A stretch of 34,844 nt of DNA from a virus. The DNA lies in the IMG/VR virus record IMGVR_UViG_3300037340_000021, positions 1 to 34,844 of that record; one strand, given 5' to 3'. The notes under the pieces are model-generated. The model did not search any database, was not told the DNA's origin, and was given only the letters and a program-made list of their open reading frames with translations. Positions 29,731 through 34,805 of the stretch are shown here, piece after piece. The stretch's first letter is position 1, and the number at the start of each line of letters is the position of its first letter. Position numbers and translations under genes: made by a program.

Positions 29731-30101
29731 GATTGCACCACAAAGTTGAGGAAGTCATCAAGGAAAAGAATTGCTACCCAACGTCTATCGTTACGACGAT
29801 GTGCGACAAGAGGGATTTTGTTGCCGGCGTCGCGTTGGGCTTGGGCCAGCCAGTTGTAAAGACTGCCAGCCTCGACACGCTTCCCCTCAACATGGAATGG
29901 AAAACTCGGCACTGTACAGATAACATCGGGGCTGTCAACTCCTCCTGCGTGTTGCTGACCACGAATGGCGACGAGACCGTGGTCTGTGAGGAAGTGTGCG
30001 AGCTCTCGTTCACCGGAGGCACCTTTCCGCCGACTGTTGATCTTTTTCGCTGGCTTGGCAGCGTGCGCTTTCTTCTTTTCTTTCACACTGCGCTTACTCA
30101 T
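29727..30101 (-). CDS. Resolvase-like PD-(D/E)XK nuclease
   Basis: A 124-aa protein with a basic N-terminus (KEKKKAHAAKPAKK, 7-20) and a small nuclease fold: GERELAHFL with Glu31, DSPDV with Asp59, and HVEGKR with Glu72/Lys74, then WLAQAQRDA. This is the Hjc-like Holliday junction resolvase arrangement, expected in a phage with its own polymerase and recombination nuclease. It could also be another small phage endonuclease. The ATG overlaps the polymerase stop (ATGA); a longer frame upstream is an overlap artefact. Confidence 0.72.
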   Translation of the reverse strand: MSKRSVKEKKKAHAAKPAKKINSRRKGASGERELAHFLTDHGLVAIRGQQHAGGVDSPDVICTVPSFPFHVEGKRVEAGSLYNWLAQAQRDAGNKIPLVAHRRNDRRWVAILFLDDFLNFVVQS

Positions 30102-32155
30102 TTGCGATACCGGTCCCCGACCCAACATTCTGAGTTCACCGGAATGCGTAATTGCTTCGCCCACTCTGGCACATCAGTCATATAGGCGTCAAGAAGTTTT
30201 GCATCAGCCAAACTCTCGGGGACTTCGCACAATATCTCATCATGAACGGTCAGCACGATCGGATGTCCCTCACGTTCGGCGTTGAACATGCCATTAACAA
30301 GTAGCTGTCGGGCAGTGGCTTGCACGACATTCTCCGTCAGCAATCCTCCGTATGCAGAAACTCGTTTCCATTGGCCCATCTTCCACGCACTGTACTCGAA
30401 CCCCCGGCGGATGTCGGGCTCCTCGGGGGTGGACCAGGGCATATGTTTGCGCACGGGCTTCGGATCATAGTAGTAGAGTTTCTTGCCATCGTGCAGGCGC
30501 GCTGTGAGCCAGCGGTCCTCAAGCTGATAGACGATGCCATACGCCTCAATGGGAGTGCGATCCCACACGGCGCGCACCGCTGCATCTTCGAGAGCGCGCC
30601 AGAGCTTCGGCACTTCCGGTGCGAAGTCCTCGCGGTACGCTTTGATGACTTTCTCACAGAACTCGTCGGTGTGCGTTTGTGCGTAGCGTTTCTTGAACTT
30701 GCGCCAGCCCATCTGGAAGCCGCAACCGAGCACGGCCCTCTTGCCGATGTCGCGCTTCTCGGGGTCGCGCTTCTTATCAACCGGGACACCATAGATGTCC
30801 TGTGCCATTGCGATGTAAATATCTTTGCCGCTGACGATCAGGTCGAGCTTGTCGTACTGGCCGGCAATGGCAAGCACGATGCGCGCTTCGATCGTCGCGA
30901 AGTCGCCGACTTCAAACAGTTTACCATCGGCGGCGATTAGGCAATGGCGAAGGCCGGAAGCCACTGCCTCGATCGGCTCACCGAACAACATGCGCACATA
31001 CTCTGCATCGCGCGTCAGGATTGCATCGACAAGCTGAGCGGGGTCGTATGGTTTATCGTCTACTTTGAGCGTCGGACAAGGGAAATTTTGAGGTTGTAGC
31101 AGCCGCCCTGCCCATCGACCAGGGCCAGCGCCGTGATACTGTAGGAGGCCGAGAGCCCGACCGTTAGAGCAGACACACGCCTGCATAGACGCGAGCTTTT
31201 TGATAGACGCGGACCCCAGGACTTTGCGGATTTCGAGGGGCCGAAGAAATGAATATGGCAGGACGATTTGCCGTTCCTCATCTTGATAATCTTCTTCGTC
31301 ACCTGCGATGCTGTCGTCGCTTTCTTCGTCATTTTCAACTCCCAATAGTTTCGCGACATGCTCTTTGTCGAGCGACGTGTCCAGGTTGCCGTCTTTGTCG
31401 CGGGGGAAGGGGCAACCCTGTTCCTGCAGCCAATCCTTGAACTTCGGAGACCCGATTTTCTTGATCCCGGTCAGGGCTATGAACTCGGCTATCAATGGCT
31501 TCGTCGCAGCATCGCAAATTGCTTGCGAGGCGTCAATATACGAGAGATCGAGACGGACACCGCGCTGATTGATACGCTGATCCAATAGCCAGACGTTGCG
31601 CTCTGTGGCGCCAAGACCCTTCACGGCACGATGTAGCTCAAGCTCGGCGTCTAGATCGGACAGGTTATAGTCGTACACACGCCGCAGCTTCTCGAGCGTG
31701 TTCGTATAGTAGCCCTTCTTGTTCACGCGGCCAAGCGCGAGCGTGGCCTTCGTGCCTTCGGTGTCCTTTTGATGGACGAGGCCGAGCGCGTGCGCTGCGC
31801 GTTCCAGCTTGAGCGGGAGGCCCTTCAAAGCGCACGACGCCATTATGTCATGCCACCGTTCGTCGGGAATGTCGGGCCAACCGTAGACGCCCATCATGAT
31901 GTTGCGCCAATGGGCCTTCTCGAAAGCAACATTGTGCGCGATGAACATGCACTCGGGATCGAGGACACCCGCCATTAGAAATGAGCGGGCCTCGGGATCA
32001 TTCAGATCGGCCGGCGTCAGCACGGTGTTCACATTGCCGAACGTGTAGCCAAGGCACAGGATGTCTGTCGTGGGGTCCTCGGCGTAACGCCAAGCACCCG
32101 CTTTCTTGAGATCGCAGGCTGACTTTGTTTCAAAATCTATGAGGCAGAAGCGCAT
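30098..32155 (-). CDS. Family A DNA polymerase with 3'-5' exonuclease domain
   Basis: The 685-aa replicative polymerase. The N-terminal DEDDy exonuclease has D7-F-E9, FIAHNVAFEKAHW and YNLSDLDAEL. The polymerase domain has motif A (VGDFATIEARI), motif B (RDIGKRAVLGCGFQMG) and motif C (TVHDEI). In motif B Leu occupies the place of the Phe/Tyr that controls sugar discrimination in E. coli Pol I, which I think is usual in this phage branch. It copies phage DNA. GGAAG lies five bases before the ATG, next to one copy of the CCTAAAAG direct repeat. An acidic insert (NDEESDDSIAGDEEDYQDEE, 275-294) lies between the domains. Confidence 0.95.
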   Translation of the reverse strand: MRFCLIDFETKSACDLKKAGAWRYAEDPTTDILCLGYTFGNVNTVLTPADLNDPEARSFLMAGVLDPECMFIAHNVAFEKAHWRNIMMGVYGWPDIPDERWHDIMASCALKGLPLKLERAAHALGLVHQKDTEGTKATLALGRVNKKGYYTNTLEKLRRVYDYNLSDLDAELELHRAVKGLGATERNVWLLDQRINQRGVRLDLSYIDASQAICDAATKPLIAEFIALTGIKKIGSPKFKDWLQEQGCPFPRDKDGNLDTSLDKEHVAKLLGVENDEESDDSIAGDEEDYQDEERQIVLPYSFLRPLEIRKVLGSASIKKLASMQACVCSNGRALGLLQYHGAGPGRWAGRLLQPQNFPCPTLKVDDKPYDPAQLVDAILTRDAEYVRMLFGEPIEAVASGLRHCLIAADGKLFEVGDFATIEARIVLAIAGQYDKLDLIVSGKDIYIAMAQDIYGVPVDKKRDPEKRDIGKRAVLGCGFQMGWRKFKKRYAQTHTDEFCEKVIKAYREDFAPEVPKLWRALEDAAVRAVWDRTPIEAYGIVYQLEDRWLTARLHDGKKLYYYDPKPVRKHMPWSTPEEPDIRRGFEYSAWKMGQWKRVSAYGGLLTENVVQATARQLLVNGMFNAEREGHPIVLTVHDEILCEVPESLADAKLLDAYMTDVPEWAKQLRIPVNSECWVGDRYRK

Positions 32156-32163
32156 TGCGACTT

Positions 32164-32171
32164 CCTAAAAG
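32164..32171. repeat. Direct repeat CCTAAAAG, polymerase side
   Basis: This 8-bp sequence recurs in the same orientation at 32941-32948, just outside the inverted repeats. That is the arrangement of a target-site duplication. If one more base is added to the inverted repeats, the duplication shrinks to CTAAAA (6 bp), so its exact length is uncertain. Confidence 0.75.
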
Positions 32172-32197
32172 CGTGCTTATCCGGTTCTCACCCATAG
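32172..32197. repeat. Terminal inverted repeat, left copy
   Basis: Outer half CGTGCTTATCCG, inner half ending CACCCATAG. It matches the reverse complement of 32915-32940 at 22 of 26 positions. The inner part overlaps the last codons of the methylase gene (TAT GGG TGA on the minus strand), so the repeat is both coding end and element end. Confidence 0.8.
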
Positions 32198-32907
32198 CCA
32201 CTACCGTTGGGGACAAACAATTTTTCTAGGCGCGCCTCTTTCCCGTTTGCAGTTGTTCGGATATCGGTCTTAACGGGGATTGTTAACACCGCCCGAAAGG
32301 TTTCCGGGGCGGCATACTCTGAAACAAAAACAGCGTTTCCGGCTGCGTGTTTGGCAAGACACCAAGCCCAAAACTCGGGCCATGAAAACGGCGCGACGGC
32401 CCCATACTGAGTTGTCCCAGCATAAGGCGGGTCGCAATAAATCACAGCATGGCGAGGCGTTGGGCAGTCCCGATAGTCGCCCGCTTTCCACCATACGCCC
32501 TCTAAGCCGCGCATCTTTTTTCTTAAAGACGACGCGGCGTTTGCAGCGTAATTTCTTCCAACGCTGCCCCTTGCATAACCGCCGAACCACTTTCCAGCAA
32601 AGGACACTCCGAACCCAACAAAGGCCGTGAGCGGGTCTTCAGGGTCTGCAGCGGCCTTTATATCAGCGTATGCCGCCTCTGAAACACACTCTGGCGGTCT
32701 CCACCCCGACGCAAGCGCAGCCCACATAGTTATTAAGGCCACGTTACTATCTGAAGCTATTCGGACTGGTGCAGGGACAACTGACATTACGGCGGCACCC
32801 CCAACGAAGGGTTCAACGTAGGTCCCACGCTGCGCGGCAAGCGGGATAAGAATTTCAGCTAAGCGAGCGGATATCCGCTGCTTGCCACCAAAGTATTGCA
32901 TCAACAT
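32188..32907 (-). CDS. DNA adenine methyltransferase (D12 class)
   Basis: A 239-aa N6-adenine methylase. Visible are the N-terminal YFGGKQRI (5-12), the SAM-binding YVEPFVGGAAV (30-40), SDSNVALI (52-59) and the catalytic DPPY (159-162) in AVIYCDPPYAGTTQYG. Length is normal. It methylates DNA, probably protecting phage DNA from host restriction or altering gene control; the recognition sequence cannot be told. GGAG is four bases before ATG 32907, ten before a second in-frame ATG at 32901. It lies within a cassette with inverted repeats, in contrast to the overlapping genes around it. No restriction gene is next to it. Confidence 0.9.
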   Translation of the reverse strand: MLMQYFGGKQRISARLAEILIPLAAQRGTYVEPFVGGAAVMSVVPAPVRIASDSNVALITMWAALASGWRPPECVSEAAYADIKAAADPEDPLTAFVGFGVSFAGKWFGGYARGSVGRNYAANAASSLRKKMRGLEGVWWKAGDYRDCPTPRHAVIYCDPPYAGTTQYGAVAPFSWPEFWAWCLAKHAAGNAVFVSEYAAPETFRAVLTIPVKTDIRTTANGKEARLEKLFVPNGSGYG

Positions 32908-32914
32908 CTAGCTC

Positions 32915-32940
32915 CTATGGGTGTCAAGCGGATAAGCATG
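32915..32940. repeat. Terminal inverted repeat, right copy
   Basis: Begins CTATGGGTG and ends CGGATAAGCATG. It is upstream of the methylase ribosome site. It pairs with 32172-32197 (22/26). It includes TTGACA on the minus strand, but no -10 fits before the start codon, so it is not a convincing promoter. Confidence 0.8.
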
Positions 32941-32948
32941 CCTAAAAG
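32941..32948. repeat. Direct repeat CCTAAAAG, ssDNA-binding-protein side
   Basis: Second copy of the 8-bp direct repeat, immediately outside the right inverted repeat. It is followed by a 14-base remnant of the gap behind the ssDNA-binding protein gene. Confidence 0.75.
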
Positions 32949-32962
32949 AATGGGGGTTTAAC

Positions 32963-33622
32963 TCAAAAAGCTATCTCGTCGTCATTTGCGCCCTCGGTCG
33001 CGCTCTCCCCGCTGACGGTGCCAGCATACGCCTTGAACACTTCTGCACCGCTCGATCCGCCGATGCGGGGGCCGTCCTTGACCCACAACACCGCGTCGAG
33101 ATAGGCAGTGACGCCATCGGGATTGCCGACGCCGTTTTCGGCTTGGCCGTCGTAGGGCACGAAATTGACCTGCGGCACGACGAAACATCCGTTATAGAAC
33201 TTCGTCTTGCCTTCGAGTGCGCGTTGGGCGCCTTCGAGATCACGCACCGTCTTGCCTTCGAGGATCGCGAGACGCGGCTCATACTTCGAGCGCGCATCGA
33301 GCACGACCGTTCCTGCGAAGAACGCTCCGTCCTTGCCGGCCGCCTTCGACTTCTCGGCGCGCTTGTCTCCGGTCGTGAACGGGAACTTGAGTTCCTTGAG
33401 ATCACGTCCGGGCCACCGGGCCTTCGCGACTTCCGCCGCCTTGGCTTTTGCGGCCTTGAGATCGGCGCCGTCGATCGCCAGCAGGAACGTCCCGCTGTAC
33501 TTCGGTTCGCCCTTGGCTTTGCCCTTGCGCCCAACAGGCACCGGGACGATCAGGTTTCCGAAAGGCATCCTCACCGGGACGGTGAAAACATAGCGCCCTT
33601 CTGTTTTGACATTATCAGACAT
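32963..33622 (-). CDS. ssDNA-binding protein (DUF2815 type)
   Basis: A 219-aa protein of the Enc34-type ssDNA-binding family. The beta-rich core includes RYVFTVPVRMPFGNL, KYSGTFLLAIDGADLKAAKA, a charged middle (GRDLKELKFPFTTGDKRAEKSKAAGKD in parts), FYNGCFVVPQVNF and GVTAYLDAVLWVKDG. The acidic C-terminal tail ends DDEIAF, the usual partner-binding tip of SSBs. It coats ssDNA during replication and recombination. I choose ATG 33622, seven bases after GGAG and overlapping the nuclease stop by eight bases; an ATG at 33643 is too early. Confidence 0.88.
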   Translation of the reverse strand: MSDNVKTEGRYVFTVPVRMPFGNLIVPVPVGRKGKAKGEPKYSGTFLLAIDGADLKAAKAKAAEVAKARWPGRDLKELKFPFTTGDKRAEKSKAAGKDGAFFAGTVVLDARSKYEPRLAILEGKTVRDLEGAQRALEGKTKFYNGCFVVPQVNFVPYDGQAENGVGNPDGVTAYLDAVLWVKDGPRIGGSSGAEVFKAYAGTVSGESATEGANDDEIAF

Positions 33623-34805
33623 TTGAGTTCTCCATTGGTTCATCGGCCGGGATCAGATGGGCAAAAATGTCGGCCGTTTGCTCCACTTTTACCGCCCCCC
33701 TTCTGTCACTTTCTCTCGCGACAGTCAACCCTGTGTTGGGTGTATAGGCGTACTCTTTGACGAGTTTCTTTGCATCGGCGCCGAGCGTCTCGATCTCTGC
33801 CGGCGACTTTAGCGCGGGCGTCGTGAACGCATCCTTGCCGATCTTCGCCGTAAGTTCCGCAAGAGCCTCCTCGCGCCAAACACGCTTGGCCTGTTTCTGC
33901 ACCAGTTTCGTGCCGGGCACCGTATGACCAATGGAATTGCGCCGGAACACTTCGTCCTCCAACGCCTTCATGTAGAATTTCACGGCGTCGCGCTCTTGAT
34001 ATTCGAGGCCAATCCGCTTGGCTGAAAAATTGGGAATGGCTTTCGGATCGGCCTTCGCGGCGGCGCCAAAGATGCCCGACAGCAGCGGGCAGAACAACTT
34101 CGCGGGACAGAAGCGGCACCACTTGCCGGCCTCGAAATCGTTGTCAATCTCGGCCGCGTTCATAGCTGGCAGCAATTCGTTCTCGGCCCACTCGACCAGT
34201 TCGCCGACCGTGGTTTCCCAGGTGCAGTTGTCGAGGCTCCATTCGGAGTGCCGAGGCTGAATGATTGTCAGGCGCACAACACGATCGCTGCGCACCTGGA
34301 CGCCACGCGCCGTCCGCTCATAGATGCGGCCGTAGGCGTAGTACTTCATCTGTGGGTTCTCGACCGGGCTGACATAGATGCCCTCACCGTGCTTGTAGTC
34401 TACAATGTCGAGGAACTCCTCGCTGTAGCAGTCCACGTCGGCGGTGCCATAGAAGTCGGGATGCGGACGCAGTGCAGGGTCCTCACCAATGCGCGCCTCT
34501 ATGTTCAGCGTGGCACCGGGAAACTTCGCCAGTGGCCGCACGAAGTTGAGATAGGTCTGCACCGCATCGGCCATGACCTTATCGACTTCGCAGCCGTGAA
34601 AATCCATGCCGAGAATGAACTCGGCGTCGAGGTCGTTGCGCAGGCAATACTCGCAAGCCTCATGTGCTGCGACCCCGAGCGCGCGATATTCGGGCTCGTC
34701 CGTCTGCGGCAAATCCAGTTGCTTGAGCAGGATGGCGCTGCCCGGGCAGTTCATCCAGCGCTCGGCGCTCGATGCGCCCTTTGGGCTGTGTGCTAATTCA
34801 GTCAT
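33615..34805 (-). CDS. Cas4/RecB-like exonuclease with Fe-S Cys cluster (DUF2800)
   Basis: A 396-aa nuclease. The first Cys is in WMNCPGSA (Cys20), and three more are in KWCRFCPAKLFCP (Cys230, 233, 239): four Cys in the AddB/Cas4 pattern that holds an iron-sulfur cluster. The nuclease core has GTADVDCY (Asp123/125) and IVDYKHG (Asp136, Lys138), followed by QMKYYAYG. It probably resects DNA ends for recombination, working with the ssDNA-binding protein next to it. GGAGGGG precedes ATG 34805. The frame stays open to the right edge, but this start signal is strong. Confidence 0.85.
   Translation of the reverse strand: MTELAHSPKGASSAERWMNCPGSAILLKQLDLPQTDEPEYRALGVAAHEACEYCLRNDLDAEFILGMDFHGCEVDKVMADAVQTYLNFVRPLAKFPGATLNIEARIGEDPALRPHPDFYGTADVDCYSEEFLDIVDYKHGEGIYVSPVENPQMKYYAYGRIYERTARGVQVRSDRVVRLTIIQPRHSEWSLDNCTWETTVGELVEWAENELLPAMNAAEIDNDFEAGKWCRFCPAKLFCPLLSGIFGAAAKADPKAIPNFSAKRIGLEYQERDAVKFYMKALEDEVFRRNSIGHTVPGTKLVQKQAKRVWREEALAELTAKIGKDAFTTPALKSPAEIETLGADAKKLVKEYAYTPNTGLTVARESDRRGAVKVEQTADIFAHLIPADEPMENSNV

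Follow-up and report, generated by a model that had tools for sequence, protein, structure and literature searches.

The IS1595 insertion sequences (ISXO2-like) are an established kind of element (Siguier, Gagnevin and Chandler 2009, cited in PMC3281130 and PMC3129680) and can reportedly carry passenger genes (Siguier 2009), with which two of the elements found here (L019 and L075) agree. Mobile insertion cassettes (MICs) are likewise an established kind, the first of which came to light with IS231 in Bacillus cereus (De Palmenaer 2004, cited in PMC3281130 and PMC3129680). The mycobacteriophage elements MPME1 and MPME2 show a 6-bp addition beside the left repeat, and all of them have the same 439-bp content (PMC3029335). 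Integron gene cassettes consist of one compact gene with its own boundaries, which is moved by an enzyme supplied elsewhere.

The DNA analyzed here, a stretch of 34,844 nucleotides that we call the window, is a phage contig encoding a terminase, a head-tail connector, a capsid protein, a family A DNA polymerase (pol), an Enc34-type ssDNA-binding protein (SSB) and a DUF2800 protein. Between the pol and SSB genes lies a 769-bp element (32172 to 32940; Table 1). The locus as a whole is very probably best explained as an IS1595-family cassette, made of two 26-bp ends and a single adenine-methylase gene, that inserted between these two genes. With similar confidence, we classify the element as a transposase-free mobile insertion cassette of an IS1595-type transposon; the assignment is at the family level only, and we name no subgroup.

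This cassette can be compared with each of the known systems. It shares with the IS1595 insertion sequences a target duplication of 8 bp, and the transposase of this family (PF12762, PF12760, NF033547) is encoded in elements that have its ends; unlike these insertion sequences, it has no transposase and carries a methylase gene. It has the anatomy of a MIC, namely, transposon ends around a passenger gene, no transposase and the potential to be moved in trans. However, the known MICs are of the IS231/IS4 type in Bacillus, whereas here the ends are of the IS1595 type and occur in phages whose hosts are uncultivated, and the payloads are single genes of many different kinds. With MPME1 and MPME2 the cassettes share ultra-small size, residence in phages, inverted repeats and demonstrable empty sites, but they have a variable payload; we rejected identity with MPME because the target duplication is 8 bp long and there is no 6-bp addition beside the left repeat (PMC3029335). 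The similarity to integron gene cassettes is one of outline, as there is no attC site or integrase platform here but DDE-transposon ends and scattered targets. In the open-access literature searched, we found no paper on phage-borne IS1595 cassettes or on a phage cassette population with many payloads. Passenger-carrying IS1595 elements and MICs are already known; the phage-borne population of cassettes with many payloads seems undescribed in that literature.

Table 1. Coordinates of the cassette, its parts and its neighbors in the window
Feature	Position	Strand	Evidence or remark
Family A DNA polymerase (pol)	30098..32155	-	PF00476; downstream neighbor of the element, intact
Left copy of the 8-bp target-site duplication, CCTAAAAG	32164..32171	.	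Sequence; 8 bp is the sole length standing out over 66 elements
Left terminal inverted repeat, IS1595-type end, 26 bp, CGTGCTTATCCGGTTCTCACCCATAG	32172..32197	+	
Cargo: D12-class N6-adenine DNA methyltransferase, 239 aa	32188..32907	-	PF02086 (1.2e-10); phrog_56 DNA methyltransferase (5.6e-29); motifs
Putative ribosome-binding site of the methylase gene, AGGAG	32912..32916	-	Read from sequence; inference; overlaps the edge of the right end
Right terminal inverted repeat, 26 bp, CATGCTTATCCGCTTGACACCCATAG	32915..32940	-	
Right copy of the 8-bp target-site duplication, CCTAAAAG	32941..32948	.	Sequence; duplication-length comparison
ssDNA-binding protein (SSB)	32963..33643	-	PF10991; upstream neighbor of the element, intact

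An earlier note, made from the sequence alone, had described the 26-bp inverted repeats, their agreement at 22 of 26 positions, the direct repeat flanking them and the methylase gene as the sole gene between them. All of this held, with the coordinates confirmed: the two ends differ at 4 of 26 positions, and the direct repeat outside them is a perfect 8-bp one. Also correct was the spacing that it had predicted for the empty site, as removing the element and one duplication leaves 30 bases between the SSB and pol genes. Its statement that the methylase gene is the one minus-strand gene failed. The pol, SSB and DUF2800 genes are all on the minus strand as well, so that the methylase gene is co-directional with its operon; the case for a cassette is not affected.

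The cargo meets the criterion for a D12-class N6-adenine methyltransferase, with a PF02086 score of 41.9 bits against a gathering score of 22, and its translation contains the motifs YFGGK, EPFVGG and DPPY. It does not meet that for the Dam subfamily (TIGR00571; 50.5 bits against the NCBIfam cut-off of 114.85), and therefore we leave its target motif unassigned. The gene may alternatively start at the third codon (32901), and its stop codon (TATGGGTGA) lies inside the left end of the element. Its codon use, which the earlier note had called unlike that of the phage, does differ, with a GC3 of 0.52 compared to 0.67 (pol), 0.73 (SSB), 0.77 (portal) and 0.72 (capsid). Between methylase cassettes of different phages dN/dS is 0.085 to 0.10 (only pairs with unsaturated dS were used), which indicates purifying selection and, therefore, that the methylase is kept functional. 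It probably modifies the phage DNA and so guards it against host restriction; this is inferred from its family, without restriction data, and the anti-restriction role proposed earlier thus remains an inference that has not been shown.

We scanned IMG/VR and a genome collection by exact matching with a slightly relaxed pattern of the window ends, a retrieval that captures only elements near the window end sequence. The pattern was present in 101 IMG/VR stretches, which gave 66 distinct convergent element pairs, and in 85 stretches of the bacterial and archaeal genome collection (257 Gb). In the latter, chance alone would give about 2 (assuming equal base frequencies and counting both strands, with 19 specified-base equivalents in the pattern). 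A perfect 8-bp duplication flanks 43 of the 66 viral pairs, and 2 more have a 7/8 match. Flank identity over the 66 pairs is 78% at length 8, compared to 19 to 35% at the other lengths from 3 to 12, and the duplications vary between elements, with a weak palindromic preference (G-W-W-Y-R-W-W-C) in common. Because the same ends recur as convergent pairs, mostly with 8-bp duplications, the window ends are not a chance occurrence. IMG/VR contigs are predicted viruses, some bacterial DNA may be among them, and some separately counted loci represent one phage found in two samples (L012 and L032; L059 and L100). A nucleotide search of the window region in isolated phages gave no match, and isolated phages, searched for the window ends and for the IS1595 transposase, and plasmids, searched for the ends, yielded only chance or remote matches; the population is therefore one of metagenomic phages and environmental bacteria, as far as these searches show.

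Most same-ended elements in beta- and gammaproteobacterial genomes are gene-free, 100 to 190 bp long (MITEs) and flanked by 8-bp duplications (L147, L148, L149, L150, L177, L184, L193 and L212), whereas in phages the ends bound gene-carrying cassettes. Two different cassettes stand in tandem in L167 (2899 to 3806), with the target duplication CGTTGATC common to both. In a metagenome-assembled genome with the label Bordetella parapertussis, some twenty contigs (L151, L165, L169 and other CAMATZ contigs) have the end sequence about 120 bases away from a contig terminus, as expected if a high-copy element breaks the assembly.

An IS1595-family transposase is encoded in 10 viral and 6 bacterial elements with window-type ends. 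The protein of about 340 amino acids matches DDE_Tnp_IS1595 (PF12762) and its zinc ribbon (PF12760), and scores 185 to 203 bits against NCBIfam transpos_IS1595 (NF033547; cut-off of 75). Simple insertion sequences of 1.11 kb in Polaromonas sp. CG9_12 have the same ends and are flanked by perfect duplications. Whether taken from transposase-bearing, cargo-only viral or bacterial elements, the end logos are equal at positions 1 to 15 and 20 to 23, with position 2 varying between A and G. The window element contains no transposase, the methylase gene being its only open reading frame, and profile matching found no PF12762 in the window contig or in 11 other cargo-only contigs. The earlier note had proposed a search for the ends in phage and bacterial genomes and for same-ended copies with other genes or a transposase; many copies with other genes were found, as were copies with a transposase, and the family, which it had not named, is now identified as IS1595.

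Polaromonas sp. CG9_12 also has a 2.29-kb version of the insertion sequence (L213, 1603 to 3894; L215, 3542 to 5833) with two extra open reading frames, which, by reading alone, look like a split IS630-type transposase.

The window-type methylase cassette occupies unrelated sites in at least three further phage contigs. L003, L016 and L112 each have a 765-bp cassette with both ends and a duplication (69%, 67% and 68% protein identity, respectively), each in a gene context of its own. The empty site of L003 is seen in L283, L284 and L285, in which the joined flanks align for up to 3 kb, with 87 to 89% identity, through the junction. These relatives have one CAATGAGC, whereas the filled genome has CAATGAAC-cassette-CAATGAGC; the junction reads ...GGGTGAAACAATGAGCATCGATG... 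in L283 to L285 and ...GGGTGAAACAATGAAC-(765 bp)-CAATGAGCATCGATG... in L003. The 8-bp target covers the overlap of the stop codon of the upstream gene (TGA) and the start codon of the downstream gene (ATG), and therefore the duplication restores both genes intact. A cassette with a DHH phosphoesterase gene (L059) has its empty site in L232 (82.7% identity in a 1148-nt alignment that spans the junction) and in L234 (77.7%). The exact empty sites came from fetched homologues of the flanking genes; comparing the joined flanks with the first set of fetched loci gave none.

At the window site itself, the methylase gene is absent from all nine pol relatives (32 to 67% identity), eight of which have an SSB homologue upstream of pol. 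Neither the SSB-based nor the pol-based search found the exact empty site, as the intergenic DNA of the relatives is too diverged for base-exact joining. The absence of the methylase gene supports insertion at the window site, but the exact joined sequence has not been seen. The joined empty site that the earlier note had proposed to look for in a related phage was thus found exactly for the methylase cassette in L003, and at the window's own site only as gene absence. Its claim that the methylase gene moved in as a unit is supported by the sister cassettes at other sites and by the exact L003 empty site.

A tree of 24 methylases places those with flanking ends together with that of the half-cassette L110 (support 91/89), and adding L113 gives 100/96; more distant phage methylases (≤50% identity) have no ends. 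L110 (2501 to 3223) and L113 (2501 to 3208) encode close relatives of the window methylase, the former with one end lost and the latter with only a decayed trace of an end left, which suggests that cassettes can become fixed phage genes. The tree fits one capture followed by spread and occasional loss of ends; a single origin is unproven. The methylase-cassette insertions fall between co-directional genes, a statement read from gene tables and limited to these cassettes. Orientation statistics from simple ORF calling are unreliable in GC-rich DNA and were excluded.

Other transposase-free elements with the same ends carry different genes. Their cargo includes DNA methylases (L095, phrog_757; L109, phrog_11619), a Mom-like DNA-modification protein (L085; PF25680, phrog_1384), phosphoadenosine-phosphosulfate-reductase (PAPS-reductase)-like morons (L012 and L036; phrog_424), the DHH phosphoesterase of L059 (phrog_4771) and a MazG-like protein (L038; below the Pfam cut-off). 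Many cassette genes have no family, as is the case for about half of the cargo genes tested here. L085 and L095 show no duplication, and their boundaries are therefore less certain than those of the window element. Methylase genes are also found inside transposase-bearing elements (L019, C5-type; L075, N6/N4-type), suggesting that a cassette may originate when a passenger-carrying IS1595 element loses its transposase gene and keeps both ends; this origin is inferred. Of the 46 duplicated elements over 300 bp, 25 have an open frame (60 codons or longer) with its stop codon in the terminal 26 bp, and such tight packing is common to cargo and transposase genes.

We propose that DDE transposition placed the cassette between the SSB and pol genes, duplicating 8 bp of target, as shown by its anatomy. 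The transposase would have come in trans from an autonomous element that has the same ends and resides in the host or in a phage infecting the same cell. Mobilization in trans, which the earlier note had also proposed, remains an inference, as no transposition has been observed. The architecture is shown: the gene has its own putative ribosome-binding site, stops inside one end and follows the direction of the operon, and the neighbors are intact. Such a cassette could be expressed at once and retained by selection, and the methylase would be expressed together with the replication operon, although expression is inferred. The window cassette would be one of a population that has the same ends and different phage accessory genes.

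The rival explanation that survives best, although we consider it unlikely, is that the element goes back to an autonomous insertion sequence that has decayed, or to an old transposition, and is now fixed in the phage lineage, spreading only vertically and by ordinary recombination. The window copy lacks a transposase, its ends have four mismatches, and L110 and L113 show lost or decayed ends around a related methylase gene. However, the window duplication is still perfect, the pol relatives lack the methylase gene, and related cassettes with duplications are present at unrelated sites. Less likely still, the methylase might serve the cassette and not the phage, for example by methylating the ends and controlling transposition. 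Some DDE transposons are controlled by Dam methylation, and methylase genes occur in several cassettes and in transposase-bearing elements; against this, GATC is absent from the ends of the window element, and the many cassettes with unrelated genes argue against a fixed role in transposition. The view that the inverted repeats are regulatory or recombination sites, and that the cassette moved by homologous recombination at short repeats, can draw on the stop codon within the ends, the adjoining ribosome-binding sites and the insertion of methylase cassettes between co-directional genes, but it is all but ruled out and was rejected because it leaves unexplained the element-specific 8-bp duplications, the exact empty site in which the 8 bp occur only once and the DDE transposase inside same-ended elements. 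We also rejected a homing-endonuclease cassette or intron, because the element encodes only a methylase and no homing nuclease and has a target duplication.

The transposition of single-gene cassettes bears on how phages acquire genes. The entry of single accessory genes (morons) into tight phage operons is usually ascribed to illegitimate recombination; the cassettes offer a specific mechanism, the boundaries of which can be recognized from the known ends, the 8-bp duplication and empty sites that can be tested for. Dozens of uncultivated viral genomes have the same ends around other genes, and phages thus appear to exchange genes singly, in the form of mobile units ready for use; several of these genes are DNA-modifying. 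If the transposase is supplied in trans, as inferred, the cassettes tie phage gene flow to the bacterial IS family that supplies the enzyme. The ends can serve as a search key for phage cargo genes, those without a family being candidates for counter-defense or takeover functions. A bolder reading, which may as well prove wrong as right, is that environmental phages share a transposon-driven gene-cassette system in which IS1595-type ends move single accessory genes between unrelated phages, into junctions that spare both neighbors. Its payloads would be adenine and cytosine methylases, Mom-like, PAPS-reductase-like, nucleotide-metabolism and unknown genes, and TnpB with stand-alone guide-RNA-like elements. 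If true, phages would have a general route for acquiring counter-defense genes singly, with the unknown cassette genes as candidates for counter-defense functions.

Four elements have a TnpB gene (PF07282, PF01385) between the same IS1595-type ends (L080, 4200 to 5335; L048, 654 to 1789; L091, 5316 to 6454; L097, 2525 to 3780), with no IS200/605 transposase and no target duplication. A repeated 241-bp element with the same ends (L080, 6787 to 7027; L018, 3334 to 3574; L102; L086; L091) has about ten copies, mostly in contig IMGVR_UViG_3300050119_000104 and its relatives. It contains a TTGACA-like box, and its 3' part is like the 3' end of tnpB (84% over 38 nt, in the same sense, with a similar GAGTGCTC hairpin). 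By this resemblance, the 241-bp element looks like a stand-alone TnpB guide-RNA (omega RNA) cassette, the guide of which would be the flank.
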